From Cristatella mucedo (lineage: Eukaryota; Bryozoa; Phylactolaemata; Cristatellidae): a stretch of 64,000 nt of DNA. Positions within the stretch are counted from its first letter, which is position 1; each line of letters begins with the position of its first letter. A model generated the notes under the pieces. That model ran no database searches. It was not told where the DNA came from and saw only the letters and a program-made list of their open reading frames with translations. The stretch covers positions 2,992,001-3,056,000 of the forward strand of contig WPIO01000016.1 in the NCBI GenBank assembly GCA_009760855.2, read 5' to 3'. Positions 13,921-63,270 of the stretch are shown in pieces. Made by a program: the position numbers and the translations under genes.

Positions 13921-13924
13921 TAAT

Positions 13925-16965: not shown

Positions 16966-16989
16966 GTACGAAATATCAAAACCAACTTT

Positions 16990-19065: not shown

Positions 19066-19107
19066 TTACTATTAATGTTATATTTAGCGGAGGCAGAAAT
19101 GCGAGAG

Positions 19108-19415: not shown

Positions 19416-19460
19416 GGTAAGTTATTGAGAAGTGAATGCAAATGTTACGTCGTTATTTAG

Positions 19461-19677
19461 GTTGTAGCTCGTCGATGATCGTGACAGCTGTCAGTGCAAC
19501 GACCTTCGTGTCACCGAATTATAAGGGATCGACGCCGCCGGGACTGTATTGCCTATGGAATCTGAGCTCTCCGACTACACAAATGATGAATGTATATATT
19601 GATTACAGTATCTCAACAGGGTTGCTCCTAGGAGTCTATTCAGGAAGCACAGTGGATTTTAGAAACCTTTTGATCCG
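19461..19677 (+). CDS. CUB domain 2, first-half exon
   Basis: After GTTATTTAG the exon has a two-base start, 71 codons and a CG end before GTAATC. The translation begins (G)CSSSMIV, then FVSPNYKGST and YCLWNLSS, then the MMNVYIDYS strand and LLGVYSGSTVDF before LLIR. SPNY, Cys-x-Trp and YSG are all classic CUB marks. Cys1 and Cys2 are kept and Cys3 is absent. The acceptor has only a short pyrimidine tract, but the phase fits both neighbours. It joins the next exon across a 77-bp intron. Confidence 0.85.
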
Positions 19678-19754
19678 GTAATCAGAGAATCGTTCCGCAT
19701 GGATGCATGCGATTCTTTAGTAAATGTCGAAAAAGCATATTTTTATCCCCACAG

Positions 19755-19873
19755 AATCAACTCTTCGCAGGTCGGCAATTTCAACGTTCGCGTAGGACCA
19801 GGAGCAATTATTTTGTTTACGACGTCGTCTGTCAATACCAATTCATGGTTCTCGGCAACGGTCAACACGATCG
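19755..19873 (+). CDS. CUB domain 2, second-half exon
   Basis: After TTATCCCCACAG, one base completes Arg (CG|A), then 39 codons and a final G before GTAAAT. The translation has INSSQVGNFNVRVG, AIILFTTSSVN and WFSATVNTI, the closing CUB strands. Cys4 is missing, replaced in the INSS stretch, in step with the missing Cys3. The next exon follows after a 99-bp intron, so CUB2 and CUB3 are tightly linked. Confidence 0.85.
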
Positions 19874-19972
19874 GTAAATTTCGGTTTTTAGAGACGGAGA
19901 CGAGCTTTTGCGGCGGCTTTCAGCTTATGAGGTGTCGCGAATGCTACCTTATTATACTTGATGCATCTCTAG

Positions 19973-20204
19973 GGTGCAGCTATACACTCATCGGAAATGG
20001 CACGATATACCCTTATGTGGGAGGAGGCAGACCTCAGGCAGCCGGTCTGAATTGCCGATGGAGGTTACAAGTTTCATCGAGCTTGCTCTACCTGAAGCTC
20101 GTTGGGCTATTCAAGTCGCCCCAATACGGCGCCTGTGTGAACGGCACGGGGGAGAGTGTGACGGTGTATGACAGCGACAGTGCGACTGCGAATACCCTTT
20201 GGTC
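19973..20204 (+). CDS. CUB domain 3, first-half exon
   Basis: It begins after GCATCTCTAG with GG TGC, has 76 codons and ends TGG TC|GTAAGT. The translation runs (G)CSYTLIGNGT, then LNCRWRLQV, SSLLYLKLVGL and GACVNGTGESVTVYDSDS. Cys1, Cys2 and Cys3 are present. The usual SP.YP segment is weak (IYPYVGGGRPQ). Its 3' end and the start of the following intron are partly duplicated at 20545-20685. Confidence 0.82.
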
Positions 20205-20424
20205 GTAAGTTTTTTTGTCTTTCGACTGATGAGGTTCAGTTTTAGAAAGTGTTTCGACGAATTGATTGTTTTGCATTGATATTGGTGGTCAGCACGTATA
20301 CTCCCACTTTGTTTAGCGTGAAAAGAAGTACATTCACGGGAAAGCTCAGTCTGTATACGCCTTAAATATGCAATTTTCAGGACTAACATGCTTCTTTGAA
20401 CATTTATTGGTTGAATTCTTGGGC

Positions 20425-20515
20425 GGCGTATTCAGGATATAGATAAGGAAATGTAAAGCACCTAGAAAGAGATTGAGTTCTCTGGGGGCGCTTTATCAAG
20501 TGTGTTATTATTATA
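20425..20515 (+). repeat. LINE-A 3' tail
   Basis: AAATGTAAAGCACCTAGAAA, then GATTGAGTTCTCTGGGGGCG and CTTTATCAAGTGTG followed by (TTA)n. It is a heavily 5'-truncated LINE-A insertion and sits between the two copies of the CUB3 exon end. Confidence 0.9.
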
Positions 20516-20544
20516 AAAAAGTGAGTAGCACTTGATCTTGTGGA

Positions 20545-20685
20545 GGGCACTGGGGAGAGTGTGACTGCGTATGACAGTGACAGTACGACTACGAATAGCC
20601 TGTGGTCGTAAGTTATTCGTCTTTCGACCGACGAAGATTAGTTTGAGAAATTGTTTCGACGAACTAATTGTTTTGTATGTGTAAT
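20545..20685 (+). pseudogene. Partial duplicate of the CUB3 exon end and donor
   Basis: It repeats the last 60 or so bases of the exon ending at 20204 and about 70 bases of the following intron, including TGTGGTC|GTAAGT. The coding frame is still open (ESVTAYDSDSTTTNSLW), differing from the original at a few sites. No convincing acceptor precedes it, so it is read as a relic rather than an exon. Confidence 0.85.
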
Positions 20686-21415
20686 CGGTAGGCTGGAGCC
20701 AAAGAATTAAGAGACCTAAAAGTGAGCAACAAAAGCATGAAGGCGATCCGTTGCTGGACTGGTTGCCAGTGCAGGTCCGCAAGAATTGGTGTGGCATCTG
20801 AGATGCTTACGACTGACAAGCCGCTGCAGAGTTTTGCACCAGCTGTGAACGTCTGATTGCACCGCCGATAGGCCAGATAGCAGTGAGTTACAGACGTCAC
20901 GACCGGATGTCTCAAAGGGGTGAACCAACCTAGATTTGGTATCCTTATCTAAGCAAGCCCAAATTTTAGCAGTGTTGTGTAGCTGAAAGTAGGCAGAATT
21001 GATTTTGGCTCTGATGAGGTCGTCTAACGAGAGGTCACTTCAGAACAAAACACCTTGATTTCGTGCAGATTCATCAGAAGATATGCTGGCTCAGCGAGTT
21101 TTGAGCGATAGCCTTTTTAATTTCTGAATTGCACTTGCTTTGCCCATAGCTAATTAGTTGGTTTTTATCATCATTCAATTACGAAAGTCTGCAGCCCTCC
21201 ATGTGCAGATGTCATCAATACATGCAGCAAGGGAGTTGATAGAATTCGACGTGCTCGAGGGCTGGGAGGGATCGAAGCAAAGGTACAACTGAGAATCATC
21301 TGCATAAAAGTGAAAGCCTGTATTTTGCTTGGCAACCGCATCTGCAAGTAAGAAATTAAAGACTCGATAATGCTTGCGTGTGCAGTTTTCTGAAAAATAA
21401 GCAAAATTAAAATTT
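20685..21415 (-). repeat. LINE-A copy, RT to C-terminal region
   Basis: The minus strand carries TGFHFYADDSQLYLCFDPSQ (RT active site intact), SINSLAACIDDI, then the thumb region and an LHWQPVQQRIAFM block near 20740. Internal stops and deletions make it inactive. Both ends are truncated and no 3' tail is present. Confidence 0.85.
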
Positions 21416-21444
21416 AATTCATGGAAAACAAGTAAAGCGTTCCA

Positions 21445-22430
21445 GTTCACTAAAGCAGATTTGGAGGTTATTTCATCTCTTCTCATGGGTAAACCCAGTG
21501 TGATTCAGAGATTGAAAAGGCGGACTCTCAAAATTGGCTTTGCAAGCACATCTCCTATCGAATCAGCTCGAAATCTAGGTGTCATATTCCAAAGCGACCT
21601 CTCGTTACACGACCATATCAGCTTCACAGTCAAATCTGCCTATTTTCAGCTTCATAACATTGTTAAAATTCGGGCTTGTTTAAATAAGGATACAACGTCC
21701 AAGTTGGTCCATGCATTTGTGACATGTCTCGACTTCTGCAAGTTGCTGCATACTGGCCTACCAGCATGTGCGATCAGGCGACTGCAGCTGGTGCAAAACT
21801 CGGCAGCTAGGCTTGTATTTCGTGAGCGTGGTAGTTGTTACATTACTTCTCTTCTCGCCGACCTGCACTGGCTACCATTCAAGCAACGGATTGACTTCAA
21901 GGTTTTTTCGCTCACCTTTAGGTCCCTTTATTCTATGGCTCCAGCCTATGTGTCAGATATACTACCCCATCAGGCCAAGCATCGTACCACCCGCTTTTCG
22001 GAATCCAACAGTCTGGAAATACCTCGTACAAACCTTAAATCCTCTGGAGACCGTGCATTTAGTTCGTATGCTCCCAAAGCCTGGAACTCCCTCCCGACCT
22101 TCGTCAGAACATCCCCTGACCTGACCACATTTAAAAAGAGCTTATAGACAGACCTATTTAGGACAGCATTTCGTGGGTCCTTGTGATTCGTCCTTCATGT
22201 GCTTATGCGTGCTGACACTGTGCATGCTGCCACTAACCACATTTGCATGCTGACGCTGTGCATGTCACCCCTAACCATGTTATTCATTTTTTTTGTTTTT
22301 CATGCATGGTTTCACTTACCATTCAATTGCATTTCCCTTTGCAGCAAATGTAAAGCGCCTAGAAAGACATTGAGTTTTCTGAGGGCGCTTTATTAAGTGC
22401 ATTATTATAGTTATCACTATTATTATGTAG
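21445..22430 (+). repeat. LINE-A copy with long C-terminal frame and 3' end
   Basis: A 228-codon frame (21461-22147) contains RNLGVIFQSDLSLHDHI, ITSLLADLHWLPFKQRIDF, MAPAYVSDILPHQ and APKAWNSLPTFVR, the conserved C-terminal region of CR1/L2-type LINE proteins. A non-coding tail follows, ending AAGCGCCTAGAAAG, GAGGGCGCTTTATTAAGTGC and (ATTAT)n. It is 5'-truncated just after the RT active site and is one of the best-preserved LINE-A 3' regions. Confidence 0.92.
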
Positions 22431-34242: not shown

Positions 34243-34414
34243 TACTCGACGCTTTGTAAATACTGCTAACGGGTCAGCTGCGCATTTCTTTTGTTTTGGG
34301 CCTATCTCTCAGTGAGCAAGAAATGGAATACTCGACGCTTTGTAAATACTGCTAACGGGTCAGCTGCGCGTTTCTTTTGTTTTGGGCCTATCTCTCAGTG
34401 AGCAAGAACTGGAA
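34243..34414. repeat. 86-bp tandem duplication
   Basis: 34243-34328 and 34329-34414 are nearly identical, starting TACTCGACGCTTTGTAAATA and ending GTGAGCAAGAA(A/C)TGGAA, with only a couple of differences (for example CGCATTTC versus CGCGTTTC). A young duplication of unrecognised sequence. Confidence 0.95.
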
Positions 34415-35655: not shown

Positions 35656-35989
35656 CGTCCCCCAATTATCTTACTATTGCCCTATAGTGCAACTGCTTTG
35701 CTAAAAACTATACGGCTGTCATACTGACTCAGCTGTGCCACTTCGAATTGCACTCATCGCTAGACTATATGCGTTCGCTTTCTTTAGAGAAAAGCATGCC
35801 GCTGAGGCTAGTAGATGGCTGGAGTTTCTAACTGGAGTTTCGTCAAGCCATCCGAACTCACTCGCCTTGCTAAATAACTATTTCCCCGCACTTGTATAAT
35901 CTCTACGCCCAGGTATCGTCATTGAGTCGTGGCCATGCAAAGAATGCAACGTAATTCATATAATTATAATCAATCGTGCTTTCACTTAG

Positions 35990-36185
35990 GCTACCAGCCC
36001 ACTGTGTTTGCCCCGAATCTGCTGACGTCGTACAACTATCCTCGCAACTATCCTGGAGGTACGAGTGTCAGCTGGCTTGTCGCAGCGTACGCAGGAAGAG
36101 TAATTCAGCTCAATTTCATTGACTTCAATTTGACGGACACTCAAGACTGCGTAAGGCTGGTGTCGCCCATATTTGGCATAAATGC
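35990..36185 (+). CDS. CUB domain 6, first-half exon
   Basis: After GCTTTCACTTAG: two bases, 64 codons, and GC before GTAAGT. The translation is (G)YQPTVFAPNLLTSYNYP, RNYPGGTSVSWLV, RVIQLNFIDF and TDTQDCVRLVSP. SYNYP, VSW and the DCVRL strand mark a CUB. Tyr replaces Cys1 and Ser replaces Cys2 (VSW). Cys3 (DC) is kept. It is the shortest first half, balanced by a longer second half. Confidence 0.85.
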
Positions 36186-36244
36186 GTAAGTATTCTGCAA
36201 TTAATGTCTTACCTGCTGGGCTGTGCCTTTGAACCCTTGTGCAG

Positions 36245-40515: not shown

Positions 40516-41001
40516 GAAAGTAGTAGAGTAGCATTTTTATATTTGTACTGGAATTTTTATATTTGTAGTCCTTTTAGAGATTTCTTTCTTGATTTCACTT
40601 AAATTCTAGATGAAAAGAACGTCGACGTCTCGGCGCTATCTCGGCCAAGAGTGTGAAACTAAGTAGACGTGCTTGGGTACCTGCACTGCTGCAGAACACA
40701 CAGCAGTCATCCAGGGAGCCCGGTGAGGTGGGCTACAACGGAGCGTATTGTGGGAACGCACGGTAGAGCGCAAAAGGAAGACACATTTTTCATTTTCGAA
40801 TTTTTCGACTTTTTCATTCAATTGCGGACCAGGAGCCGGAGCATCGAGAGGGCACGATTAGGGCACGCTAGTGCAGCACGTTGTAATTGAGCGAGTGCTG
40901 AGAAGGCGAAGAGAGGCAAGCCGTGTTCAGCCTATAGCGCTAGAGGTGTGGATAGACCAGTTACGTGGGCAATAGCGGTCAGCTGACTCGACGACCTAGT
41001 T

Positions 41002-41189
41002 CAGCGGTTCTCAACTTGTGGCTCTCGACCTCTTTGAGGGTCAAGCGACCCTTTCACAGGGGTCGCCATTCACGATCGGCAAGCAGGGCGTCTCCAGATA
41101 TTGCACACAATAGTTTATGTTTGGACGTCGCCGCAGCATGAGGAACTGTATTAAAGGGTAGAGGCATTAGGAAGGTTGAGAAACACTTG
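41002..41189. mobile_element. SPIN-like hAT miniature transposon
   Basis: Left end CAGCGGTTCTCAACTTGTGG, then GCGACCCTTTCACAGGGGTC. Right half CATGAGGAACTGTATTAAAG and GCATTAGGAAGGTTGAGAAA, then CACTTG. The ends form imperfect inverted repeats (CAGCGGTTCTCAAC / GTTGAGAAACACTTG). I recognise this layout as that of the SPIN/URR1-type hAT non-autonomous elements best known from vertebrates. It is shortened in the middle and diverged. No transposase is encoded. No clear 8-bp target duplication is visible. Confidence 0.75.
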
Positions 41190-41489
41190 CCTTGATTATA
41201 TAGCAGCAGAAGAACCCTATTTGCAACGACTTCCACTTGTGTTGGGCAATTCAGAAGCGCTCGCTGCTACCTGTATCGTCAAGTAGGAGCACCTTACCCC
41301 TTATGCAGAGACAAAGGGGCATTGCTACCCAGGATGCGTAAATGTGGCAGCACTTACGTGGGCCGAAGTGGAAGATTTAGCTCTAATCCAATGAATTCCT
41401 GCGATTAAGTTTAAGTTAAATTAAAATTGTAATTAAATTAAAAATAAATAAATAAAAATAGCACGCGATTAAATAACAATTACATTTGA

Positions 41490-43110: not shown

Positions 43111-43469
43111 AGACATCGGCCATTAAATGTATTTTTCCAGGACATCAGTCATTAAAGGCGATCTTTTTTAAGCCTCTATGCAATACTAGGGCTTGCTTGA
43201 GCCCATTAAAAGATTAGCTAGTGTTGTAATCTAAATTTTCCGATTGATCAGCTTTGACTTTAGTGTTAAGAGCTAACAGCTAAGCTATAAGAGCTAGGCT
43301 TGCAATTAGCCATGGTGCATTGATACAAACTACCGTTGTTCTCGTATGGAAGTAAGCTTACAGCCATTAGCGATCTACTGAATAATTCTTAAGGCTTGAA
43401 AGAAAGAGTCCTTGTGAACTGGCTTAGCAAACTTCTGCAGTAACCCTTCAGCTGCAGACTGTATGGCAG

Positions 43470-46060
43470 TAATATAAATACACTTGACAAAGCGCTCTCA
43501 AAAAACTCGATCTCTTTCGAGGCAATTTACAATTGCTGCAGAGGAGACACGATCGCATGGTGAGTGGTATCATGCTTGATAAGCAGCATGACTAGCATGG
43601 TTAGGCATGGCACGCGCAGGGTCTGCATGCAAGTGTGGTTAGTGGCAGCTTACAACAGTGTCCGCACAAATAAGCACATAGAGGACGAATCGCTGGGACC
43701 CACAGAATACTGTCGTAAATAGCTGCGTTTTTAATTTCTTTTAAATTTGGTCGAGTCATGGGATGTCATAAAGGAATTCGGGACAGAGTTCCAGTCTTTG
43801 GGAGCATACGAACTAAAGGCACGGTCTCCAAAGGATTTGAGGTTTGCAAGAGATGTAAGTCAACAGTTAGATAACGAAAAGCTGGCGGCACGATGCTTAG
43901 CCTGGTGGGTGTTAGATCTGGTAGTTAGGCTGGAGCCGAAGAATCAAGGGATCAAAAAGTGAGCGACGAAAACTTGAAGTCGATCCGTTGCATGACTTGC
44001 AGCCAGTGCAGGTCGGCGAAAAGTGGTTTGATGTGGCGTTTGCGACTCTCACGACAGACAAGAATAGCTGGAGAGTTGTGCGCCAGCTGTGGGCACCTGA
44101 TTGCACGTGCCATTAGACCAGCAAGCAGTGAGTTAAAGACATCAAGACGGGATGTCAACAATGCACGGACTAACATGGGTTTTGTTTCACGATCTAAACA
44201 AGCCCCGAATTTCAGCACTATTATCTAGCTGAAAGTAGGCAGAACTGATTGCAAAGCTGACGTGGTGGTCTAAAGAAAGGAACATTCTGGAACATGGCAC
44301 CTAGATGATTTTGTCCAGAATCAACGCGAGATTTGCTGGCAGAGCTCATTTCGAGCGTCAGCCTTTCCAATTTCGGAATCACACTGATGCCCATGAGTTG
44401 GTTGTGTCGTCATACAATTTTATGAAATTAGCAGCCATCCATGCGCGGATGTCATCGATACACGCAGCAAGTGAGTTGAGAGAATTCAACATGCTCGCGA
44501 TCTGGGAGGAATCAAAGCAAAGGTACAACTGAGTATCATCCCCCATAAAGAGAAAGCCTAGAATGGGCTTGGCAATCACATCAACAAGAGATAGAGAGAG
44601 TATAAACCGTGAAAAGAGCGAAACCAAGCACGGAGCTCTGAGGTACTCCAAATTTCAGAGGTACCCTGGATGATCTGTGTCCATTACAATCAATACTCTG
44701 GAGTCTACCACTGAGATAGGACCTGAACCATTGCAGAGCGGTGCCCGTGATGCCCAGGCGAGATGAGAGGCGCTCAAGAAGGACTTGACGATTGATAGTA
44801 TCAAAAGCTGCAGAACGATCGTGCAAAACAAGCAGAGAAACTCTACCTATGTCTGCATTCCTAAGTAGGTCGTTGTATACCTGAAGCTATGCTGACTCGG
44901 AGTGATTAGCTCTAAAGCCAGACTGGAACTTACTAGCAGGTTTTGAAGTTTCAATATTTGAGTTCAGCTGGTCTGCAACAACTCGTTCCAATGTCTATGA
45001 TAGGAATGGTAGAATGGAGACTGGGCGGTAGTTGCTCAAGTTTTCTTGGTCTAGTGTTGCTTTCTTGAGTAGTGGCCTGACTACAGCTTTTTTTACTAAC
45101 CTTGAATCCTTTGGAGACAGTGCAGTTAGTTCGCATGCTCCCAAAGCCTGGAACTCCCTTCCGACTGGCGTCAGAACATTCCCTGACTTGACAACATTTA
45201 AAAAGAACTTAAAAACGCACCTATTTAGGACAGCATTTAGTGGGTTCCTGCGATTCGTCCTTCACGTGCTTATGCGTGCTGACACTGTGCATGCTGCCAC
45301 TAACCACATTTTTCCTTTTGCATGCTGACCCTGTGCATGTCATTCCTAACCATGTTATTCATGTTGTTTGGTTATCAAGCATGACATTACTCACCATTCA
45401 ATTGCATTTTCCTTTGCAGCAAAAATGTAAAGCGCCTAGAAATTTGTCGATTTCTCTGAGGGCGCTTTATCGAGTGAATTATCATTATTATTTTCGAAAT
45501 GAGCAAGGACATGTCCAGAGGCTAATGACATATGAATTATGTTAGTTATGCGTGGTAGCAGCAGATCAATGCAATGAACGAGCAGGGCAGGGGGAATAGG
45601 GTCCAGAGGACTTGTTGTCTTCTTTGATTCGGATATGAACTTCAGGACGATGTCACTAGTCGCTTGCTTGAATTTTGACATTGAGGTGCTGCCAGGAGTC
45701 GAGGGTAAGCATTCTAGGGGGGTCGCTGCCCTCGCTGGGTACTACTTCCTGATTCTGTCTATCGTCAAGACCAAGAAGCTAGAGAAGCGATCAGCCAGAT
45801 CATCACAGGGATCATCCAGTGAGGAGTTAACCTGGGAGCGGTTGAGGAGATGGTTGACCGTCGAACTCCTTTTTTTTGGATTGCGCATCTGTGATTCATA
45901 TTGCTATTTAGCTAGGGGCACATTTTGCTTAATCTGAGAAGCAAATCCATCAAGCGAATCATTTAGGGTCGTGCTGCAGAAGTCCACCAGTAAGAATTGG
46001 CGGCTCCGACTAAGGACATGAAAAGCAAGATGCTTCCTTGGCATCAGATGCAAAGGTCTT
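43470..46060 (-). mobile_element. Long LINE-A copy with an internal LINE-A insertion
   Basis: Minus strand: linker and RT N-terminal part (SPLDPIPPALL, ASGHVLAHF; about 46060-45498), interruption at 45098-45497, then RRPLLKKATL-type coding, DRSAAFDTINRQVLLERL, ALQWFRSYLSGRL, GDDTQLYLCFD and SLAACIDDIRAW, the C-terminal region, and a 3' tail at about 43475. The active site reads M-G-D-D. Frame breaks throughout make it inactive. The sequence rejoins cleanly on either side of the insertion. Confidence 0.85.
45098..45497 (+). mobile_element. LINE-A 3' copy inserted in another LINE-A
   Basis: Plus-strand C-terminal coding (DSAVSSHAPKAWNSLP, TTFKKNLKTHLFRTAF), the non-coding end with GCATGCTGACCCTGTGCATG, and the GAGGGCGCTTTATCGAGTG tail with (ATT)n. 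It interrupts the minus-strand copy between its HVLAHF and KAVVRPLL parts. 5'-truncated and relatively well preserved. Confidence 0.88.
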
Positions 46061-49994: not shown

Positions 49995-51977
49995 CCTGAA
50001 CAGCAGACATTTCTTATCGACTTGTTATGTACCTAACACGAATATGACAGTCAAGCGGCAATAATGGCCCCAATTTTTTTTTAATCTGAAATAAATTAAT
50101 GTGTACATCACGAAATACGGAATGCACGCCAATAGTAATGGGCATGCGGTTGATTGATGCCTGTAAAAAATAATCATAGACTTCTACTTCTTCGATTGCT
50201 TCACCAGTCTGTTCGAAAGCATCTCGGGGGAGTGTCCAGCAGTTGTCAGCCAGCATTGTAGTGGACCATTGTCCCAGGTTTCTTCGTTCCTTTGTGGAGA
50301 TAATAATAGTAATAATAATAATAATGATAATAATGCACTTGATAAAGAGCCCTCAGAGAACTCAATCTCTCTCTAGGCGCTTTACATTAACTGCAAAGGG
50401 AAATGCAATTGAATGATGAGTAATATCATGCTCGATAAACAAAACAAGATGAATAACATTGGGGTGTCTTTATTGAAACGTTCGCCATGTTTCATGACGA
50501 TAATACAGTTGTCAGGAATGAATCCCAACGGAAATGAAGGAGGTGGATCTTTAACCACATATTGGAGCTACGTTTTTACGTGTCTTTTGCGTTTACTAGC
50601 TCCCTGTATTTTTCCCCCTAACATTCCCGAGAATATTTGCAGACACTAGGCTATAAACAATCCATTCTTATTTCGCACCACCAAGCAAATATTTACTGAA
50701 CCTGTCATCTTTGGCGTGCCTTCGAAACTGAGGGCACACAAAACGCCCTCTTTAACCTTTGCTTGCTGAGACGAACTGATATTTCATGCAGGTATTGGAA
50801 AACAGGCGAAGTCGGGTCCATAGCTTTCACGAAGTTCTTCGTCAAACCTAGTTTGACTAGAAGAGTTCGTAGCAGGATTTTGAGAGCCTCGACCAGAGCT
50901 GGGTGCTGGATATTCTTCTCTCTATTTGCTATAGTTTGTCCGCTAGTCTATTCCTTCTGCGATTAGTGCAGTCTTCTTGCTCGGCTATCCCTCTTAAGTA
51001 AGAAACACATTTTGCACATCCCTGCTGCAGTTCCGATAAAGCAAATACCTTCAAATCACCACAGAAGTGCTATTTTTACTCGTTATACTCAATTGAATTT
51101 ACTGGATGCCTTAAGTTATCGCATGTCTCTTTTATGTGGACAGCATGAGGTACTGAAATAGATAATGAAATAGATAAATAGAAGATGGTTTCGATTGTAC
51201 AAAAGCACAGCCTTATGACTCAGCTTTGAAGAGTCTACAGATAGTCTCCATTCTTGCGGGTCATGCGTGACTTGTCGGACGTTGATGAGGCCTTCAGTAT
51301 CGGAAAAGAATATCGTTTAGTTTAACTACTAAAGATAGGCTTCAAGTTCTGGTGGCACCAATGATCTTGAGTAGCTGCGGGTTCTTGAAGGGGAAGTCCG
51401 TCGCCGTGTGGAACTGGTTTCAATGCAGACGGAATGTTTGGATGGATTATTGTCGACATCTTTCGCTTCGTTATTCCGCCGGAAAAGAGGAGGAACCAGG
51501 CAGAATTAATAGTCGTGCATGTGGTTGCTTGGCTCTCTCCGATACACCACGGGGACTGCCAACGGCATTGAAGGTCTTTTGCAATTCAACCACGGTGAAG
51601 GCATTGTTGTACATGAAGTAGCACAGCATATACATGGGACCCAAGGCTGCTCTTGGTTACCAACCCTGTATCCGAAGTGACGATGATGTGCTTGCTTTTT
51701 TTCACTTGAGAAGTGATACTTTTCTTCGGGGCGGCAAACGTCACTTCCCAAAAGTATAGAAAAATCTGTCGACGGTATTAGCACACTTTCGAGGCATTGC
51801 TGTTTTGTATTGTACATCAATAGATAAAATAAATACAGTTTCGTGTAACAGTAGCTTGTACTCTCTCGCACAATAATTGAAATACTTTAAATGCTCAACT
51901 TTTTCGACTGGGGACGATAACTTCAGCGTGCTGATGCAGCCGCCTGACAGTAGCATTGAATTGCATCAGAAAATGAC
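49995..51977 (-). mobile_element. Element C copy 2, interrupted by LINE-A
   Basis: Aligned with 22965-24935 along its length. The minus strand encodes REPSNHMHDY (about 51510), a middle region, and a C-terminal frame (50256-50014) starting MLADNCWTLPRDAFEQ, then VYDYFLQASINRMP. The MLAD-x-CWTL-x-RD pattern is what I associate with the C-terminus of a conserved uncharacterised repeat protein in invertebrates. A LINE-A tail copy at 50300-50458 splits it. Frames are broken, so it is a relic. Confidence 0.6.
50300..50458 (-). mobile_element. LINE-A tail inserted in Element C copy 2
   Basis: (AAT)n, TGCACTTGATAAAGAGCCCTC, then GGCGCTTTACATT and non-coding sequence up to AATAACATT. Copy 1 of Element C lacks it at the equivalent place (about 23250). 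Confidence 0.9.
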
Positions 51978-51989
51978 GAAGTCTTAATC

Positions 51990-52085
51990 CAGCCTAATCT
52001 GTGAGTGGGCTATACAAAACACTCCTGCCTAACACCCACATAGTCGTCGTGGCTTTTTAGAGTTGCAGAAGGCAATACATGCACA
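51990..52085 (+). repeat. LINE-B 3' tail (B7)
   Basis: TGTGAGTGGGCTATACAAAA, CACCCACATAGTCG and AGTTGCAGAAGGCAATACAT, directly followed by a LINE-A copy. Confidence 0.85.
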
Positions 52086-52485
52086 GCCTATCCTTTGGAG
52101 ACCATGCATTTAGCTCGTATGCTCCCACAGCCTGGAACTCCCTCCCGACCTGCATCAGAACATCCCCTGACCTGACCACATTTAAAAGAAACTTAAAAAC
52201 ATACCTATTTAGGACAGCATTTAGTGGGTCCTTGTGATTCGTCCTCGATGTGCTTATGCGTGCTGACACTGTTCCTGCTGCCAATAACCACATTTGCATG
52301 CTGACCCAGTGCATGTAACCCCTAACCATGTTATTCATTTTGTTTGTTTTTCAAGCATGATTTTACTTACTATTCTATTGCGTATCACTTTGCAGCAAAT
52401 GTAAAGCGCCTAGAAAGAGATTAAGTTCTCTGAGGGCGCTTTATCAAGTGCAATATTATTATTATTATTATTATTATTAAAGTCG
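52085..52485 (+). repeat. LINE-A 3' copy
   Basis: SFGDHAFSSYAPTAWNSLP-type coding, LKTYLFRTAFSGSL, the non-coding end, a GAGGGCGCTTTATCAAGTGC tail and (ATT)n. It ends about 170 bp before the CUB8 exon. Confidence 0.92.
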
Positions 52486-52657
52486 TAAATCGTAGCTTCA
52501 GTAGGGGCTCATGCTGGTGGCACCTGCTGGCCTTCTGTACGCATTTCTCGTGCTTGCAGCCCGGGCCATCAAAGCCGGCCATCTTTAACAGTAGCTCCGT
52601 TGCGGTGTCTACGACAGCCTGTCACTATCTAGGTGGCTCTCACTGCTATCGCTGCAG

Positions 52658-52892
52658 ACACGAATACGACTGAATTGTTCGGAAAGGGCAGCATAGTGAC
52701 ACCAAACTTTCCGTACAACTACCCAAGCTTGTTCGGATACACGTGGAAGCTGACGGCAGTACCCGGCCAATACGTCTACATCGAGTTCTACAGCTTCGAG
52801 ACGGAGACTCACGAGGGCGACGAAGAGTGCTCGTATGACAGTCTCGTCATCTACAGCTCTCTACAGCCATCCGATTTCTCACTGCTGGCCCG
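52658..52892 (+). CDS. CUB domain 8, first-half exon
   Basis: After TATCGCTGCAG: AC start, 77 codons, CG before GTAGGA. The translation is (D)TNTTELFGKGSIVTPNFPYNYP, FGYTWKLTAVP, QYVYIEFYSFETE, EECSYDSLVIYS and FSLLAR. The TPNFPYNYP segment, the E..D pair (FETE, C-x-YDSL) and VIYSS are textbook CUB. Thr replaces Cys1 and Tyr replaces Cys2 (YTW). Cys3 is kept. An earlier AG at 52632 gives a stop in the joined frame, so the 52658 start is preferred. The acidic residues fit a calcium-binding type of CUB. Confidence 0.88.
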
Positions 52893-53041
52893 GTAGGACT
52901 TCCAGTACAGGCCGGCTCTGAATTCCAAGTAGAATCCACGCCGGTTTATAATTCACATGAAAATTCAAATCCGGCTCACGCCACCGTAGAATTCGCGCTT
53001 CTGTTTCCATCCCAGCTAAGAAGTGTCTGCTGACATTTCAG

Positions 53042-53157
53042 ATTCTGTGGACCGTCAATTCCGCCGGGACTATTCGTTGGCTCTGAGGCATCCGTCGTCT
53101 TCACTAGCAACAGCCTTCACGTGGCAACTGGAGTCAATGCGACCTTCACATCTGCAG
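53042..53157 (+). CDS. CUB domain 8, second-half exon
   Basis: After GCTGACATTTCAG: one base completes Arg (CG|A), 38 codons, then a final G. The translation is FCGPSIPPGLFVG, ASVVFTSNSLHV and GVNATFTSA. RFCG is the classic start of a CUB second half (Cys4). The position that should be a GT donor reads GCTAGT, so the exon would need a GC-AG intron. Reading on gives an in-frame stop (GGC TAG) immediately. Length and phase match the other second halves if spliced there. Confidence 0.85.
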
Positions 53158-53254
53158 GCTAGTTCAACGCTGCGCACATTGCCGAAAAACCAAGGAGACA
53201 GCCAGCACACGCTTGCGCTTAGCATTTACGTCACACCACGGCTCCTTCATCCAC

Positions 53255-53690
53255 AGCTGAAATATTGCTCCAGTTTCAGCCTTTTTCGGTTCCTCATGTC
53301 CTGTATGGACAGCAAATTAGCTGTTCCATTCCTCCGCCTAAAGACCGTTGCCGATACATGCTTTTGCTCTGCAGGTCCTAGACTGTGGAACTTGCTTTCA
53401 CAATTCTTATGCGACGGCAAATACTCTCCTGCTGCCGACTGTGGCGCATCTTTTCGAGCGATCCTGAACTACTACTTCCGTGCTACTCACTACCTCAAGT
53501 GCTCTCATGACTCTGCTGTGCTTCCCGCTTTCTCTTTTTTCTGCGTAAGTAAAGTCTGTTGGCTACCGCATGCGCACGGAAAGCCGCTTAGGCTGTTAGT
53601 GGGCTATACAAAACTCTATGCGTCACATCAACGCTGTCTTTTTTGGCGAAGTTACAGACAGAGATGCATACATAAAATATGTGCACATGA
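53255..53690 (+). repeat. LINE-B 3' copy (B8)
   Basis: MDSKLAVPFLRLKTVAD, SAGPRLWNLLSQFL and HYLKCSHDSAVLP, then the 3' end to about 53685. It starts about 100 bp after the CUB8 exon and its frame happens to be open through that exon. Confidence 0.9.
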
Positions 53691-54074
53691 AGACTAGGTA
53701 CGGCTAGTTTACAACGTCCATAGCCACTCTGGCTGGTCCTAACCGTGCAAAAGGAAAAATATCACTCACTCGGTGAAAATGCAAATATCATTTCTAAGGA
53801 GCAACTTGTCGACAATTTCAAAAACTATATAGCAAATAACTTTCATGCAGCGCCATTCTGAAGTGTCTCAAGCGCGGTTGAGCTGATAACAGCGGATAGC
53901 AGCACATTTTGGTGTCATCTTTCAGAGCGATGCATTCAAAGGATGTTTTCTGGTTACAAAATTTACGTGCACTGAATGTTGCTTTAAATGAGCTTCGGAC
54001 ACCACTAAACCGTAAATGACTGGAAGGCTACCATAGGATTGCCGAAAGCCTATTATGTCCTGAGTGCACTATTT

Positions 54075-54680
54075 CATAATAATAATAACAATGTACGTGA
54101 TAAAGCGCCCTCAGAGAACTTAATCTCTTTCTAGGCGCTTTACATTTGCTGCAAAGGGAAATGCAATTGAATGGTAAGTAAAATCATGCTTGAAAAACAA
54201 GCAAAATGAATAATATGGTTAAGGGTGACATGCACAGGGTCAGCATGCAAATGTGGTTAGTGGCAGCATGCACAGTGTCAGCACGCATAAGCACGTGAAG
54301 GACGAATCACAGGAACCCACTAAATGCTGTCCTAAATAGGTGTGTTTTTAAGTTCCTTTTAAATGTAGTCAGGTCAGGGGATGTTCTGACGCAGGTTGGG
54401 AGGCAGTTCCAGGCTTTGGGAGCATACGAACTAAATGCACGGTGTCCAAAGGATTTAAGGTTTGTACGAGGTATTTCTAGACTGTTGGATTCCGAAAAGC
54501 GGGTGGTACGATGCTTGGCCTGATGGGGGAGTATGTCGGAGAGATAGGCTGGAGCCATAGAATGAAGGGACCTAAAAGTGAGCGACAAAACCTTGAAGTC
54601 AATCCGTTGCTTGACTGGTAGCCAGTGCAGGTCGGCGAGAAGTGGAGTAATGTGGCGATTTAAGCGTCTCCTACGTAGCA
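54075..54680 (-). repeat. LINE-A 3' copy, well preserved
   Basis: (AAT)n and the GTGATAAAGCGCCCTCAGAG tail. A 124-codon minus frame has HITPLLADLHWLPVKQRIDF, MAPAYLSDILPHQAKH and APKAWNCLPTCVR. Truncated at about 54680. One of the youngest-looking copies. Confidence 0.92.
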
Positions 54681-54794
54681 TCCCCGTAGTCCTAGCAGCT
54701 TACTAAACTTTCAGACTGAGATGCGTCACATTATACTTATATGCAAGTGTATATGATTTTATACATTTGAATTCTGGTAAATATTAAAAATAAC

Positions 54795-55050
54795 AATATA
54801 TTTGTATAGCGGCCTTAAATAACTAAATCTCTTTTTAGGCACTCTAGGCTTGCTGCAGAGGAAGCATAACCAAATGGTCGGTTGTTGCACGCTCAATGAC
54901 AGCAAGCGTAACATGGTTAGAGATGACACGCTCAGGGTCAGCATGCCAATGTGGTTAGTGGCAGCACGCACAGTGTCAGGACGCATGAGCACATTGAGGA
55001 TGAATCACGTGGACCCACTTAATGCTGCGATAAATAGATACGTTTAGATT
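54795..55050 (-). repeat. LINE-A tail copy, degenerate
   Basis: TTTGTATAGCGGCCTTAAAT, then the non-coding end up to GCACATTGAGGATGAATCAC and a little coding sequence. Confidence 0.8.
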
Positions 55051-55839
55051 GGCTTGCTCAAGGAAATGCCTGCCTGACTGACCTCCTGACCTCCGACGAC
55101 CAACTTCGCGGTGATTCGCTCGCGTAGATTGTGCCGAGTTTTTAAGCGAGCCTGTAATGTTTCGAGCTTATTAGCAGCCACGTACGTAGCAGACACCAAA
55201 ATCTCCGCGACTTGCACGGGCTTCTCATCGGGTATCGATTGTCGATTATCGATTATCGACTTCTTCAGTCGCTTTTCGCCCCATCAGTCATTCCCTAACT
55301 TCGACTTATTTACCCGAAATGCTTTCCCTTCTTGAGGCCTCCACTTGCAGCTCCTCGCTTCCGTTATCTGCCAGTTTCCCTCACTACGGTCGGATTCCCA
55401 TCTGACTCTGGTCAAATATACGCTGGCTGTGTCTATGAATGAACTCAAAGAATTTCTATGAAGGCCCTACTTTCAGCTACAACGCATCCTAAGCCCGGCA
55501 CTCGGCGATGCTAGATATCACGACGTTCTCTGAATTTGTAGTCATTAGAGCTGAGGTATAAAACTGAGTTTCTCAAATTACAAGCTCCATGTGATTATAC
55601 TGTATTTCTTGCGAGTGAGCGACAATTCGAATGATATTAATATTAGCCCCCCTGTCCTGATAAGCTCAGTAATTATCGGAGCCGATTGGTGGTATACTGG
55701 CAGACAAACCTAGTAAAGCCATAATTGAGTTTTGAGATCTCAAATGGTTCTCTGGATATTAGATTGAACCCGAGTTCTCCAAATCGACCATAGTTCGACT
55801 GCTATTTGTAGAGTCTAGATTATATTCGGAGATCCTAGC

Positions 55840-56850
55840 AAACTACTGCCCAATTTCGTTTCTTATTTGCATCAAAGATTCTTGAAAATATTATTGCTAG
55901 GCAGCTGGTACTATACATTGAAACTAATAAATTGTCATAAAAATTTCAGTTGATTCAAACGACATCATTCCACAGAAACTTCTCTTCTCCGTGTAACCAA
56001 TGGCATCCGATGCAGCAGCGATTACGGAAATATCAATGCCCTAGAGCTGCTACATCTATCAGATGCCTTAGACACCATTGATTGCGATATCCTACTTGAA
56101 CAATTGAGAACAACAATCAATCCTGCAGAACAGGTGTCGGCCTTTTTTAAATCTTGCTCGTCCTGTCGCCTTCAATCCTTGTTGTTTGGGGAGTAAGGTT
56201 GCATCCACCAGGCCAGTCACCCACGTATTCCCGCAAGGTTCTGTCCTCTGTCCTTTGCTGTTCTCCATTTATACTGATCCTCTTGTCAAAATGATTCTGC
56301 CTCATAGAATTGGTTATAGCTTTTTTGTTGGCAATATTTACCTGTATTTTTATTTAAAATGTTAGAATCCGCTCAGGGCCTGATAAACTCAATGCTCGCC
56401 TTGCAGACATTTTGCTTTGGATGTCGCTAAATTTACTTAAACATAACGAGAATATAGCGGAACTGCTAATCGCAGGACACCTCAAGCGTGTGGCTTTACT
56501 AGAACACTTTATCTTCTAATATTCGTTATGCGGCAATAAACGCATGCTCAAAATTTAGGTGGCATCTTTGACGGCTGCCTGAATTTTTAAAGCTTCACTA
56601 AGAAGACTGCCTCCATAGCTGGCCGTCAGTCCGGAGCAGCTAATTCCACGCTATTCACTACCTCCTCGACTGTTCTCCTGACTCAGTTATGCTTCTCTTT
56701 TTTCTTGTTTGGGTGAGATTAAGTTGACGGGTTACCACATGAGTACCGAAAGGCGCTTAGGCTTTCAAGAACCGTTAGAAACAGCTCTTTTTCTGAACAG
56801 CCATACAATCGTTGTGGCTCTGCTGAGTTACGGAAGAAAAGCGTGCATGT
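55840..56850 (+). repeat. LINE-B-like copy, degenerate
   Basis: Plus-strand frames broken by stops: ARQLVLYIETNKLS, SVLCCSPFILI-type RT remnants, DKLNARLADILLWMSLNLLK, LLIAGHLKRVALL, then C-terminal remnants (CTCCTGACTCAGTTATGCTT) and CGCTTAGGCTTTCAAG near the end. Order and spacing match the long LINE-B copy. Confidence 0.65.
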
Positions 56851-56969
56851 GTCATGCACTTGCGTCGATTTAAGAGCTCCTTTCTCCCTAGTATGTTTCT
56901 GATGGGCTTGCTGAACGACGGCATGTGTGTGCATTTTCATTAGTGGAGAAATTATCAAACAATGCTGCT

Positions 56970-57185
56970 TTAATAATAGAAATAACAAATTTGATAAAGC
57001 GCTCTCAGAGAACTTAATCTCTTGCTGGGTGCTTTACAATTTCTGCAATGGACGTACGATCGAATATTTAGTGGTAGCCAACTCAATAAATAGCAAGAAT
57101 GAATCAGTTAAAGGTGGCATACACAGGGTCAGCATGCAAGCGAAGCTAGGATTCGGCAGTTTCATCGCGCATAAGCACATGTGGC
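56970..57185 (-). repeat. LINE-A tail copy
   Basis: TTTGATAAAGCGCTCTCAGA and the non-coding end to CGCATAAGCACATG on the minus strand. 5'-truncated. Confidence 0.85.
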
Positions 57186-57660
57186 ATTTGTATTCTCTGA
57201 TGCCGGTACACCAAAACGCAATCAATAGCTGTGAGCTTTCGTACTTTGCCTGTCAAAGACAGCGCCTGTTGTGCGTTTCTGCCTCTAAAGAGAGAGTCCG
57301 CACCAAGTGATTTCCATTCACCGATTTGCTTAATTTGGTTTACTAAATATGAAATTATGTATCCATTATATCAAAGATTAACCAACCATATTTCTTCACT
57401 CCGCGATACTATTAGCATTTAACTTCTGCAATAAGCTAATAAAAAAGTATTGCAATTACACCTTGGAGGTGGTCAAAAGGCAATCTTCGGAGATCATAAG
57501 GCTGTGAAATAAGTATTCTGTCACCTACAGAAAGCTCATAGCAGACAGAGCATATATCACCAATCTTCATAAGCATATCACGTGACCATTGGTGTCGTCC
57601 TCACCGTAATAGTTGCACTGTAAAAGCACCTACGAAATTTTGATTTGCAAGCCTCTTAAG

Positions 57661-57707
57661 TAGCACGTAAGAAATTACGTTGACCGTAGCACGTAAGAAA
57701 TTACGTG
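57661..57707. repeat. 20-bp direct repeats that are also palindromic
   Basis: TAGCACGTAAGAAATTACGT occurs at 57661-57680 and 57687-57706. Within the second copy CACGTAA and TTACGTG form a perfect 7-bp stem around GAAA. Confidence 0.95.
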
Positions 57708-59454
57708 CCTAAACACCTATAAAGGCTTAATGCTTCGGGCTGTTGAGTCTAGCACACCAGCTGCTGCACTAGAGACGACGGTGGCAAGTGACCAGCATTT
57801 TAGTTAGCATCGCCCGTACCTATTATCACTTTGTTATCGAAGTTCGAATGCATTCTTGGATTATGTTGCTGCTGCTAAAATACGTGAATGGTGCATTGAA
57901 AAAGAGCGAACCGTAGCTGCCAGAGGGGCCGGGGTCGCTAGCTAAGACACAGCTAATTTGGTGAGGTCTGCAAGCTGAGTAGCCGCTCGTTCTGTATTCC
58001 TAGCATTGCCTTGAACCGCTTAAAGCGTTTTCCCTCAAGCTTTACTGTGAATCTCTCTAACGTAGTGGTCTTCAGGCCTGCTATAACTCCGACAGCCCAA
58101 CTTAATACATGTCTTTAGAATACTCGAAAAATGAGCAATAAACCCTAGTAATACCCGGCCTTATTTCTAAAAAGGGGCCGACCTGCTCGCCTTGAATGAA
58201 ATTTGGCTGAAATCAGTAAACTGTGCAGTAATTAAAGACGCTACTCCGGCTGGTTTCTCCTTCTTTCACGCCGCTAGATCAATCAAAACTGGAGGTAGAG
58301 ATGCGATTATCAAGCGCTCGAAATTAGACTTCGAGCCATTTGCAGTACCCTCGAAGCAGTCTGTCGAATCGATTGTCCTGATGTAACCCTACAGCAAGCC
58401 ATCGATGATGGCAGTAATCTGTGGCCCACCAGGTATCAAGCCCACCTTTATCTGGGATTTCTACCATCTCGTTTCGATTTTGTGTGCAAGAAATCGATCG
58501 TTCCTTATCGACGGTGAATTCAAGATCCATTTTCATACCTTATCTGACGCCTTCATCTTCGAATTTCGTCCGCTGACCAGCTCACTGTCTCTTGTGGCTT
58601 ACATTCACCCTACAATGTGTGCCCTTCTCCTCCTCGTCATCTAAAGTCACCTGTGAATCACGAAACCTCAAGACCCTCAACCTCGATACTGCTTGTGCGG
58701 GAATGTGTGCTTCGCCGCAGGAGCTCAATCCCTCATTGACCTGTCATCATTGGTAGATTGCTACAACATGACACTTTCTGACATACTCGACAAATTAGCG
58801 CCTCTAACTGAGCGCACTGACGGCCATTGCTCAAGAGGCTTGTGGTTTGCCACAGACATTAATCTAGCTAGGTCAACTAAGGGCTAGCTTGAAAAAGCGT
58901 ACAAAAGAGATCAGGACCGACTTTCAATTGACAGGCATACGAGGACTACTGTAGATCGTACAAATCGATCACAGCCAAGGCCAAGTCTAGCTTCCATAAT
59001 AACATTGCTGAATTGATAATGCAAAATTCAAAAATGCTGATGTCTACTAACGACCGTCTCCTCAACCGCTTCCGGGCTAGCTCCTTACCTGATGATCACT
59101 GAGACGATCTAGCTCATTGGTTCTCTGGCTTCTTTGTCAAGAAGATAGACAAGGTTTGGGAGTCCATCAATAAGGCTGTCCCTCAATTCCAAGCAGCAGC
59201 ACCTCAATTCCTACATTCAAAGAGGTCGTTATTGACCTTATTGACGTTATTGTCCTGAAGTTAGAATCCCAATAAAGAAAGTAACGTGTTCCAGATCCTA
59301 CTCCCACTGTCCTGCTTCTAAGATGCATTTATCTGCAGCTGCCATGCATAACCAACATCATAACTATGCCATCGGCGTCAGGTCATGTCCCAGCGCCTTT
59401 CAAAAAGGCTGCAGTAAGGTTTTTACACAAAAGAGCAACACGAGACCACCTAAC

Positions 59455-59584
59455 CACGTTGTTCATTTTGTTTATCATGCATAATACCACTCGCCATTCG
59501 ACCACGTTTCTTTCGCAGCGAATGCAAAGTACCTAGAATGAGATTGAGTTCTCTGAGGGTGCTTTATCAAGTGCATTATTTATT
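59455..59584 (+). mobile_element. LINE-A tail inserted in LINE-A
   Basis: ACCACGTTGTTCATTTTGTT, the non-coding end, then GAGGGTGCTTTATCAAGTGC and ATT. It interrupts the RT coding of the host copy. Confidence 0.85.
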
Positions 59585-59837
59585 ACCAAGAGAAATTAAA
59601 CAGCTTTGATTTCACTTGCCTTTCTACCATTCTAATCCTAGAAACTAGAACAAGTCGTGGCAGACCGGCTGAACTCAAATATTGAAACTTCAAACATTGC
59701 TAGTAACTTCCAGTCTGATTTAAGAGATAACTACTCTACAGAGTAAGCATTGCTTTGGGTGTACATTAAGCTAATTATGAATGAAGACAAAGGTAGAGTA
59801 TCTTTGTTTGCTTAGCTCGATTTTTCAGCAGCTTTTA

Positions 59838-60508
59838 ATAGTAATAACCCACCTGATGTAGTACCCTCAGATAACTCGATCTCTTTCTTAGCGATTTACA
59901 GATGCTGCAAATGAAACACGATTGGATGGCTAGTGGTAGCATGTTTGGTAAACAAAGAGGATATCACAGTTAAAGGTGACATGCCTAGATTCAGCATGCA
60001 AGTGTAGTCAGTGGCAGCATGCTCAGTGTAATCAACCTAAAACACATAAAGAATGAATCACAGGGACCCATAAATGCTGTCATAAATAGCTGATTTTTTA
60101 ATTTTCTTTTAAATGTGGTCAAGTCAGAGATGTCGTGACGCAAATCGCGATCGAGTATCAGGCTCTGGGAGCAGACGAACTAAAGGCACCGTCTCCATAG
60201 GGTTTCAAGTTTTCTGCGTTGTGTAGGTGAACAGTTAGATTCGGAAAAGTTGGTGATACGATGCTTACCCTAGTGGAGGATTAGATCTAATAGGTAGGCT
60301 GAAGCCAAAGAATGAAGCAACCTAAAAGTGAGCAACAAAACCTTGAATGTAATGCTTTGTTTGACTTATAGCAAGCTAAGGTCGGTGAGAGGCGGTGTGA
60401 CGTGGTAACTGAGAAGCTTTTGATAGACAAACCAAGCTGCAGAGTTTTGCACCAGCTATAAGCTTCTGGTTGATCATGCCGGTAGACCAGCAAGCAGTGA
60501 GCTACAGA
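59838..60508 (-). mobile_element. LINE-A 3' copy inserted antisense in LINE-A
   Basis: The minus strand has a tail at about 59850, non-coding end, C-terminal coding and the thumb region to CAGTGAGCTACAG. It splits the host sequence exactly between the SAAF and DTIDHQ codons of the RT motif. Confidence 0.88.
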
Positions 60509-60855
60509 AGCTATTGATACTATCGATCACCAATTCCTTCTGTAGCGCCTCACATGTCGCCTGAGCATTACTGGCACTTCATTGCAATGGTTCAGGTCCT
60601 ACCCAGTGGCTGACACCAGACTATTGATGTGAATGGAGAAACATAATCCAAGGACCTCTGAAATATGCCGTACCTCAGGGAATCGTACTTAGTCCGTTCT
60701 TTTAACGATTTTTATTCTCCTTCCTGCCGTTGTGATTGCCAAGCACAATCTGTTTTTCTACTTCCGTATGGATAAAAATTAGTGGCTCTTTCGCTTTGAT
60801 AGCTCCCAGCCTTCCAGCATGTTGAACTCTCCGAACTGCCTTTCTGCATGTGTAG

Positions 60856-61612
60856 CCGGGTTCACGGGTGCTGGCCTACTCCTGCTATGGCCTCCAACTA
60901 TCTACTATCTATGCTCTAGGTCGTGGCATGGACCCTCCAGCAACAGTGGTTAAATGGTGATTGACCGGTTACACAAGACTTTACATACTGCACAAACATG
61001 CGCTAAACAAATGGGGAATACCCAAGTCTACAGGGATGATACTGAACAAAATTAACGATAGCGACGATAGACGACGCCACAAGCGATAACAAGCGTGTTG
61101 GCCGTTCAGTCGGCTTCCACAGTCCTGCCTTTGTACCGACTCTGTTCCAACAGTACGAGGGTACGCCTTCAAAGATCTGGCTAGCCGAATAACTGTTTGG
61201 ATTGTTGGAGTCGACGTCTACCACAGTCGAGAGCTTCCGCCGAAAGATACCAGCTCAGGGGGGCGACAAACACGCCACAGGGGGAACGAGGAATACACGA
61301 GCCAAAATAGTGAGCTAGCTATCCGGCTCCGCTCGGGCCTTTGCCACTCGTCGCCTTGCATACGTGGCCGCATCGCCGGAGCACGCCTGCACCCATCGAG
61401 GCACAAAACTTGGCTAGACCGGGAGCCTCCACCACCACCATTACGACCTCCACCACCACGACCAACTGCCGTTCCCCAATAGCCCCAGTGACCTACGTCA
61501 CCTCACACCTAGCCATAAGTAAAGGTCAGACCCTGGCCCCGCCAGCGACCCTCATCACACTACAACCGTCCTGCCACAGCCAGCCGAACCCAGCCCGGGT
61601 GCATATTTATTA
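60856..61612. mobile_element. GC-rich insertion of unknown family in LINE-A
   Basis: About 757 bp of GC-rich sequence, from GCCGGGTTCACGGGTGCTGG to AACCCAGCCCGGGTGC and a short AT stretch. It separates the LINE-A codons SLSACV from the following NDIHTLMAA block. Ends contain partly complementary GC-rich motifs but not clean inverted repeats. The last 75 bp or so resemble 27890-27970. No convincing protein. Confidence 0.6.
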
Positions 61613-62394
61613 ACGACATCCACACACTGATGGCAGCAGACTTTCATAAATTGATTTGTGATGAATCTGACTTACAAATAATAAGCAAACCAAGTGTGTT
61701 TCAGAAATTTGAAAGGCTAAAGCTCAGCCCTGTCAGCATATCTCCTATTAAACCTGCACTAAATCTATGTGGCATGTTTCAAAGTGACCTTTCATTAGGC
61801 AACCACATCAGTTCTACTGCCAAGTCTTCCTGCTTTCAGTTTCATAAAATAAATAAAAGTGTTTACTTACACTTCGTACAAACCTCAAATCCTTTTGAGA
61901 CCATGCCTTTAATTTGCGTGCTCCCAACGCCTGGGATTCACTCCGACTTGGGTCACGACATAACCTGACTTGTTTAAATTTTAAAAGAAACTAAAAACGC
62001 ACCTATTTATCATAGCATTCAGTGGTTCCTGTGATTCGTACTTTATATGCCTAGGCGTGCTCTGACCATGCATGCTCCCGCTAACCACACTTGCATGCTG
62101 ACCCTGTGCATGTCACTCCTAACCATGCTACTCTTGTTTTTTATTGAGTGAACTACCACTTACCATTTCAATTTGTTTGCAGAAAATGTAAAGCACCTGA
62201 AAACAGATCGAGATAACTGAGGGCGATATATCAAGTGTGCTATTGTCATTATTATCTCATTATACTATATGATGCCACACAAACGAAAGACTTATTTGAT
62301 CGCTCAGCAAATGAAAAGCTCATCAGTTACCTGAAAACCCTAATCTAAACTTATATCTCATGCATATCAATCAGAGCTTGGAGTGTTATATTTC

Positions 62395-62500: not shown

Positions 62501-62950
62501 ATCTGCCTTCACTGGTCACTCCTTGTATACACCATCACAAAACCATTTTAAACCATCGCAATTAAGGCCGACCGGAGCTCGCCATCCTAAGAAGCTTAAC
62601 GATGTACTGGGCTTGGCGCTTCTATGCACGCCTTATTTAGAAGTACATGCCTCGCAACAGAGGTCCACCGGATTGTACGTTACTTTTGGAAATAATTTAA
62701 ATATGGTTCTAATTTATAATACTTTGCTTTCAAAGAAATTTTAGAACTTTGACTCCTGACAGGCTGTTGTATCGTGGCGGATGAAAGGCTGCGGCTAGAA
62801 GATCGCTGCTTCTATGTTGCCATCGAGGTGCTGAACCCTGTAGTCCGTATTGTTCAGTTCGTTGCGGTGCCTACCACTTTAGTCCATGTCCTTCCCTTTA
62901 CTGTTCCTTTTTTGAAGCTCTAATTTGCTGCCTTATCTTTGGTGTTGCAG

Positions 62951-63179
62951 GCTGTGGCTGGGTGGTAAACGGCACTGGCTACGTTTCGAGTCCCAATTAT
63001 CCTAAATCTTACGTGGGCCTCATGAATTGCTCATGGGAGATTACGGCAGACGTTTCCGGCTACTTAATGCTCAACTTCAGCTCCATCGACATCGAAAACT
63101 CCACCAACTGCACCCATGACAGTCTCACTATTTGGACGAGGCCTTCGTACAATAATGACGTCGAAGTGCTTTTAGAGAG
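62951..63179 (+). CDS. CUB domain 9, first-half exon
   Basis: After TTGGTGTTGCAG: two bases, 75 codons, AG before GTAAGA. The translation is (G)CGWVVNGTGYVSSPNYP, MNCSWEITADV, YLMLNFSSIDIE, TNCTHDSLTIW and EVLLER. This is the most canonical CUB in the window: CG, SPNYP, C-x-W-x-I, C-x-x-D-SL-x-I. All three first-half cysteines are present and the ENS/HDSL acidic positions fit a calcium-binding CUB. Several N-glycosylation sequons. Confidence 0.93.
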
Positions 63180-63270
63180 GTAAGAACATGATAGTAGGGG
63201 TCAATGAGTTACGAAGCTAGCTCGATGTGCTATCAGTATCACTGCTTCTATGCGTACTTTTATTTTTCAG

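Follow-up and report, generated by a model that had tools for sequence, protein, structure and literature searches.

SPIN (SPACE INVADERS) elements, best known for moving between vertebrates, are a textbook case of transposon transfer across phyla. Their target-site duplications are 8 bp long, with the consensus nTCTAGAn, and we take their terminal inverted repeats to be CAGCGGTTCTCAACC.../...GGTTGAGAACCACTG; interiors of the URR1 type are otherwise known from rodents. To our knowledge the invertebrate hosts are few, namely a blood-feeding bug and freshwater snails, Lymnaea among them. In the literature, vertebrates and Rhodnius are reported as SPIN hosts (PMC11614815), and the snail Biomphalaria glabrata is reported to have about 1,000 copies of a hAT element whose identity to SPIN is significant (PMC5440852). 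Since SPIN or SPIN-like hAT elements have already been reported in two invertebrates, the family described here adds one more host to those of an already known travelling transposon, and is not a new kind of element.

The window copy and its resemblance to SPIN

We identified a 187-bp non-autonomous hAT element in the window (the whole stretch of 64,000 nucleotides that was analysed, G000:C77:2992001-3056000 of a host assembly of 572 Mb in 688 contigs; Table 1). The original prediction placed a SPIN-like element at 41002-41189; the element is present, but its right end is most likely one base earlier, with the terminal G of CCACTG changed to T. A motif search of the window recovered exactly, and where predicted, all four motifs on which that reading was based. 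Each of the two 20-base motifs has a single match in the window at up to three mismatches and none in 100 shuffles, so both are far beyond chance; for the 14-base motif alone, with two mismatches allowed, 0.48 chance matches are expected. BLAST with the family consensus found no second copy within the window at E 0.05.

Table 1. Features of the window, with their supporting evidence
Feature	Position	Strand	Evidence
Motif CAGCGGTTCTCAAC	41002-41015		exact match
Motif GACCCTTTCACAGGGGTCGC	41047-41066		exact match
Motif CATGAGGAACTGTATTAAAG	41137-41156		exact match
Motif GCATTAGGAAGGTTGAGAA	41164-41182		exact match
SPIN-type hAT element, worn copy, 187 bp	41002..41188	+	motifs, genome family, consensus divergence
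Left terminal inverted repeat CAGCGGTTCTCAACTT (family consensus CAGCGGTTCTCAACCT)	41002..41017	+	
Right terminal inverted repeat AGGTTGAGAAACACTT (family consensus AGGTTGAGAACCACTG)	41173..41188	+	also in inverted-repeat search
Putative left target-site duplication ACCTAGTT	40994..41001	+	5/8 match with right side
Putative right target-site duplication GCCTTGAT	41189..41196	+	5/8 match with left side
CUB-type exon frame upstream of element (frame limits)	35926..36186	+	phmmer E 2.4e-5; jackhmmer 1.5e-21
CUB-type exon frame downstream of element (frame limits)	52633..52893	+	phmmer E 1.4e-8; jackhmmer 2.8e-26
CUB exon frame	62785..63180	+	Pfam PF00431 E 1e-11; PDB 3kq4 (cubilin) E 6e-22, best solved relative

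The SPIN and URR1-type consensus sequences used for comparison are provisional ones, and not database records or sequences drawn from a vertebrate copy; the SPIN consensus was fixed before any other copy of the family had been seen. The score of the local alignment between the window stretch and this SPIN consensus was 97, and none of 500 dinucleotide shuffles scored above 20.5; aligned end to end, the two have 152 identical and 33 different positions and 26 gap columns (140, 46, and 19, respectively, for the URR1-type consensus). The terminal inverted repeats of the window copy are imperfect, differing from those of SPIN at one of 16 positions on the left and two of 16 on the right. The resemblance is much closer for the consensus of 28 family copies (see below): its terminal repeats are identical to the SPIN repeats given above, and 85 of 85 bases on the left and 77 of 78 on the right are identical to the provisional SPIN consensus (over the whole length, 176 columns are identical, 11 differ, and 22 are gaps), while 24 central bases of the 187-bp form are unlike it and are the family's own. 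This match at both ends bears out the predicted SPIN identity, and the sequence comparisons support placing the window element in the SPIN family of hAT DNA transposons. Chance is not a credible explanation for the resemblance, being ruled out by the shuffles, by the alignment score, and by the 162 exact genomic occurrences of a family 25-mer against none for its control. Exact SPIN motifs had no matches in viral contigs or in prokaryote genomes; when the letters of the SPIN ends were looked for in literature text, 14-base strings were found and longer strings were not.

Copies, target sites, and deletion forms in the host assembly

The further copies that the original prediction suggested looking for in the assembly are abundant. 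The window stretch recurs, besides itself, as 39 copies at 80-82% identity (40 places scored of 1895 first-look candidates), and the right-side 25-mer has its exact occurrences on both strands (67 forward and 95 reverse; the control was the reversed 25-mer), spread over many contigs (among the 100 places listed of the 162). A copy is counted in this way only if all 25 bases are intact, so the true copy number is probably well above 162, and probably many hundreds. A majority consensus of 28 copies (the window copy and 27 of the 39, L002-L028) is exactly 187 bases long, from CAGCGG to CCACTG; a second sample, consisting of 20 of the 100 listed 25-mer places in an alignment anchored on the first, gave a majority consensus with no difference from it.

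The flanks of the family copies have a consensus of the nTCTAGAn type, with 8-bp duplications. In the first sample, 16 of 27 copies have a duplication matching at 7 or more of the 8 positions, as compared to 16 of 702 mismatched flank pairs; in the second sample the counts are 5 of 16 copies and 1 of 240 mismatched pairs, with L095, L096, L106, and L110 omitted for having another interior or left side. Thus 11 of 27 and 11 of 16 copies fall short of 7/8; the counts of duplications are low estimates, however, because a few rows have visibly misaligned ends. The putative duplication of the window copy itself is plausible but weak by itself, since its 5/8 match is equalled by 8 of 43 right flanks of other copies when set against the window copy's left flank.

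The family is not restricted to the 187-bp form. Three of the 20 places in the second sample have a different interior, and a fourth has the right part only. We traced four places (L113-L116) 3.5 kb upstream for an autonomous copy, and found three derivatives of ~315 bp and one right part only. The three derivatives (L113-L115) consist of the left end, further interior sequence, and a URR1-type block, in which 69, 74, and 68 of 84 bases agree with the provisional URR1-type consensus in L113, L114, and L115, respectively; L115 is flanked by a perfect CTCTAGTG duplication (by eye). The URR1 resemblance that had been predicted is therefore supported in this genome, in its longer derivatives: the rodent-type URR1 interior between SPIN-type ends is absent from the window copy and the 187-bp form, and is partly present in the longer forms.

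A genome search with L115 returned at least 47 matches (40 scored of 1809 candidates), several of them to the right half only; at four places there is a partner left end at a distance of 318 to 620 bp. We traced three right-half places (L117-L119) 1.2 kb upstream, and each has a left end, then another interior, and then the same 3′ subterminal block, with ~180 to 260 bp between the left end and that block; by coordinate arithmetic these forms are ~415 to 505 bp long, which is too short for a transposase. The family thus comprises deletion forms of 187 bp, ~315 bp, and ~415 to 620 bp, and such nested deletions sharing both ends are the expected remains of a full-length element that was once active.

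Age of the family and the source of its transposase

The window copy differs from the family consensus at 24 of 164 non-CpG sites (K2P 0.163). Mean non-CpG divergence is 0.052 for the 27 best-match copies, a value biased low because they were chosen as best matches; over all 20 places of the 25-mer sample the median is 0.120 and the mean 0.207, the four places whose interior or left side differs having inflated the latter. In that sample the average for the 16 copies of the short form is ~0.108 (range 0.051-0.192), which is still biased low. At assumed, unmeasured neutral rates of 2 to 5 per 10^9 sites per year, a divergence of 0.108 would correspond to ~22-54 million years; according to PMC5857283, SPIN entered several mammals 15-46 million years ago. 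The divergence, which had been proposed as a means of dating the insertion, thus yielded a measure of relative wear and no more than relative dating.

The divergence of the window copy is about three times the mean of the 27 best matches, and none of the 40 scored places holds a copy closer to it than 82%, as might be expected if it came from an older, separate wave of the same family and not from the main burst. We consider this unlikely: the 27 copies that make the contrast so large were picked for their similarity, and the 16 short-form copies span a range that fits one burst, the window copy being more diverged than 14 of them and less diverged than two.

A profile search of the assembly with PF05699 found 138 hAT places (150 scored of 766 candidates). 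A full hAT transposase with matching ends, which the original prediction hoped to find, was not recovered: none of 60 examined places had SPIN ends flanking the hAT transposase within the flanks searched. These places comprised 20 from a young family, searched with flanks of 1.5 kb; 20 older ones, with flanks of 3.1 kb unless the contig ended sooner; and 20 more with ~0.2 kb upstream and 1.2 kb downstream, in which the only match was one of 12 bases (E 0.66). The autonomous SPIN element has either been lost, or decayed beyond Pfam recognition, or is among the other 78 listed places.

The young family is the youngest hAT family, and was rejected as the SPIN source, since none of its 20 fetched copies has SPIN ends. 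It accounts for 62 PF05699 places at 73.5-78 bits (for example L034, L035, L040, L043, and L048), and across the fetched copies most 150-bp segments within the element share 98-100% identity with L034; L034 appears by eye to end near ...GGTACAGCCCTA. Open frames reach ~640 aa (one place reads 1947), and the family looks recently or currently active. We also observed a second hAT lineage (L053, L061, L064, L068, L076, and L084) with the motif TFPNLRRMAQKMLTLFGSTYVCEQTFSVM or close variants, which presumably resembles the hAT part of GTF2IRD2.

The missing transposase also bears on whether the family is SPIN at all. With SPIN transposase at 0 of 60 hAT places, and with ends of the form CAGNGGTTCTCAAC common to several hAT families, the elements could belong to a related but distinct Buster/Charlie-type hAT, inherited vertically in invertebrates and SPIN-like only at its ends. 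This is very unlikely in our view, because the match to the provisional consensus extends well past the ends, through 85 contiguous bases on the left and nearly all of the 78 on the right; the interior blocks of the longer forms match too; and non-coding DNA should have been saturated with changes since the protostome-vertebrate split. By the same reasoning, the best inference from these sequences is that the SPIN-type element entered the host lineage by horizontal transfer, since non-coding ends equal to the vertebrate consensus (here a provisional one) would not survive vertical descent across phyla.

Host, surrounding gene, and comparison with known systems

The COX1 encoded on the mitochondrial contig of the assembly (C688) can be matched to mammalian COX1 along almost all of its length. 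In the alignment to the best PDB chain, with codons counted by eye, 9 of 11 aligned ATA codons were at methionine (the others at leucine and isoleucine), both aligned AAA codons were at lysine, and the 10 aligned AGA/AGG codons were at three serines, four alanines, and one each of threonine, glycine, and lysine, with none at arginine. COX1 therefore uses the general invertebrate mitochondrial code, and the host is not a vertebrate. Such a code excludes vertebrates, echinoderms, flatworms, cnidarians, and sponges, and fits most protostomes. The gene order of C688 (L069) looks strongly rearranged: by eye it runs cox3, two tRNAs, atp6, cox1, atp8, nad3, and then a long non-coding stretch that contains palindromes. 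Further COX1-like stretches are found at G000:C166:4375626-4376390, C83:2826-3735, C549:2641741-2642010, and C299:634220-634540, and are probably nuclear copies or the mitochondrion of another organism.

Mammal DNA is a common laboratory contaminant, and SPIN entered several mammal lineages (PMC5857283), so vertebrate DNA in the assembly or contig could in principle have supplied the element. The chance of this is vanishingly small: the copies lie on many contigs of one assembly, one of them 24.8 Mb long, and the window's own contig measures 6.75 Mb; many copies have site duplications in their flanks, and they share a common 187-bp form of their own.

The element was predicted to lie in an intron, and its place between the CUB-type frames at 35926 and 52633 agrees with a putative intron. 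Using the CUB exon at 62785 as the query against the 1679 open frames of the window, phmmer or jackhmmer identified plus-strand CUB-type exons at 26174, 35926, 52633, and 62785, and in a Pfam scan of 132 window frames three matched CUB. Two weaker phmmer matches, at 32829 (E 0.0023) and at 3341 (E 0.0044), may be due to chance, and a frame at 19663, first taken as CUB-like, has no Pfam match. Given CUB-type exons at four plus-strand places, with Pfam and PDB support at 62785, a multi-CUB gene around the element is likely; we infer a single gene rather than neighbours. Elsewhere in the window (12674-22147, 43466-45741, and 50307-62275) there are many LINE fragments, with reverse transcriptase and a 3′ tail ending TTATTATTAT, which we take to be one or a few CR1/L2-like LINEs. 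Comparison of a LINE reverse transcriptase with viral and prokaryote contigs yielded no confirmed relative. Tandem repeats are present at 4989-5310 (122 bp, 2.6 copies) and 34243-34414 (86 bp, two copies, 97% alike), and G+C content is 52-57% in positions 1-8000 versus 42-49% in the rest of the window.

We have high confidence that the window copy is an inactive miniature SPIN hAT element, presumably moved in trans, which belongs to a family of several forms and has decayed in the putative intron of a CUB gene. A full-length SPIN element would have entered the host's ancestor, and its transposase, once active in the germ line, would have recognised the ends of the miniature and moved it in trans, with insertion at nTCTAGAn-like sites producing the 8-bp duplications. 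Internally deleted forms would have been spread by the SPIN transposase until the family reached at least 162 copies, one of which landed in the apparent intron of the multi-CUB gene; the transposase would then have been lost and the copies left to neutral decay. What this scenario would connect was observed directly: the anatomy of the element, the multi-copy family, the duplications, the deletion forms, the wear, the non-vertebrate host, and the place between CUB exons. On a broader reading our judgement is evenly balanced: a protostome outside the known SPIN invertebrates may have been invaded tens of millions of years ago, and its deletion series, including URR1-type interiors, may have been kept as a fossil record of a phylum-crossing element. 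With its several deletion forms and at least 162 copies, one more invertebrate host would provide a datable record with which to ask what ecological links spread SPIN, and the many insertion sites could be used to time the invasion in the host's relatives.

Compared with the SPIN_NA series of tetrapods and Rhodnius, the family shares the terminal 85 and 78 bp (judged against the provisional consensus), 8-bp duplications of the nTCTAGAn type, the lack of coding capacity, and many copies; it differs in its invertebrate host and in the ~24 interior bp of the short form, which are its own. With rodent URR1, the longer forms share the interior block (68-74 of 84 bases, again against a provisional consensus) and the right end, but unlike URR1 they keep SPIN-type 5′ sequence and further interior blocks, and the window copy has no URR1 interior. 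The hAT element of Biomphalaria glabrata, likened here by description and not by sequence, is similar in being SPIN-related and present in many copies in an invertebrate.
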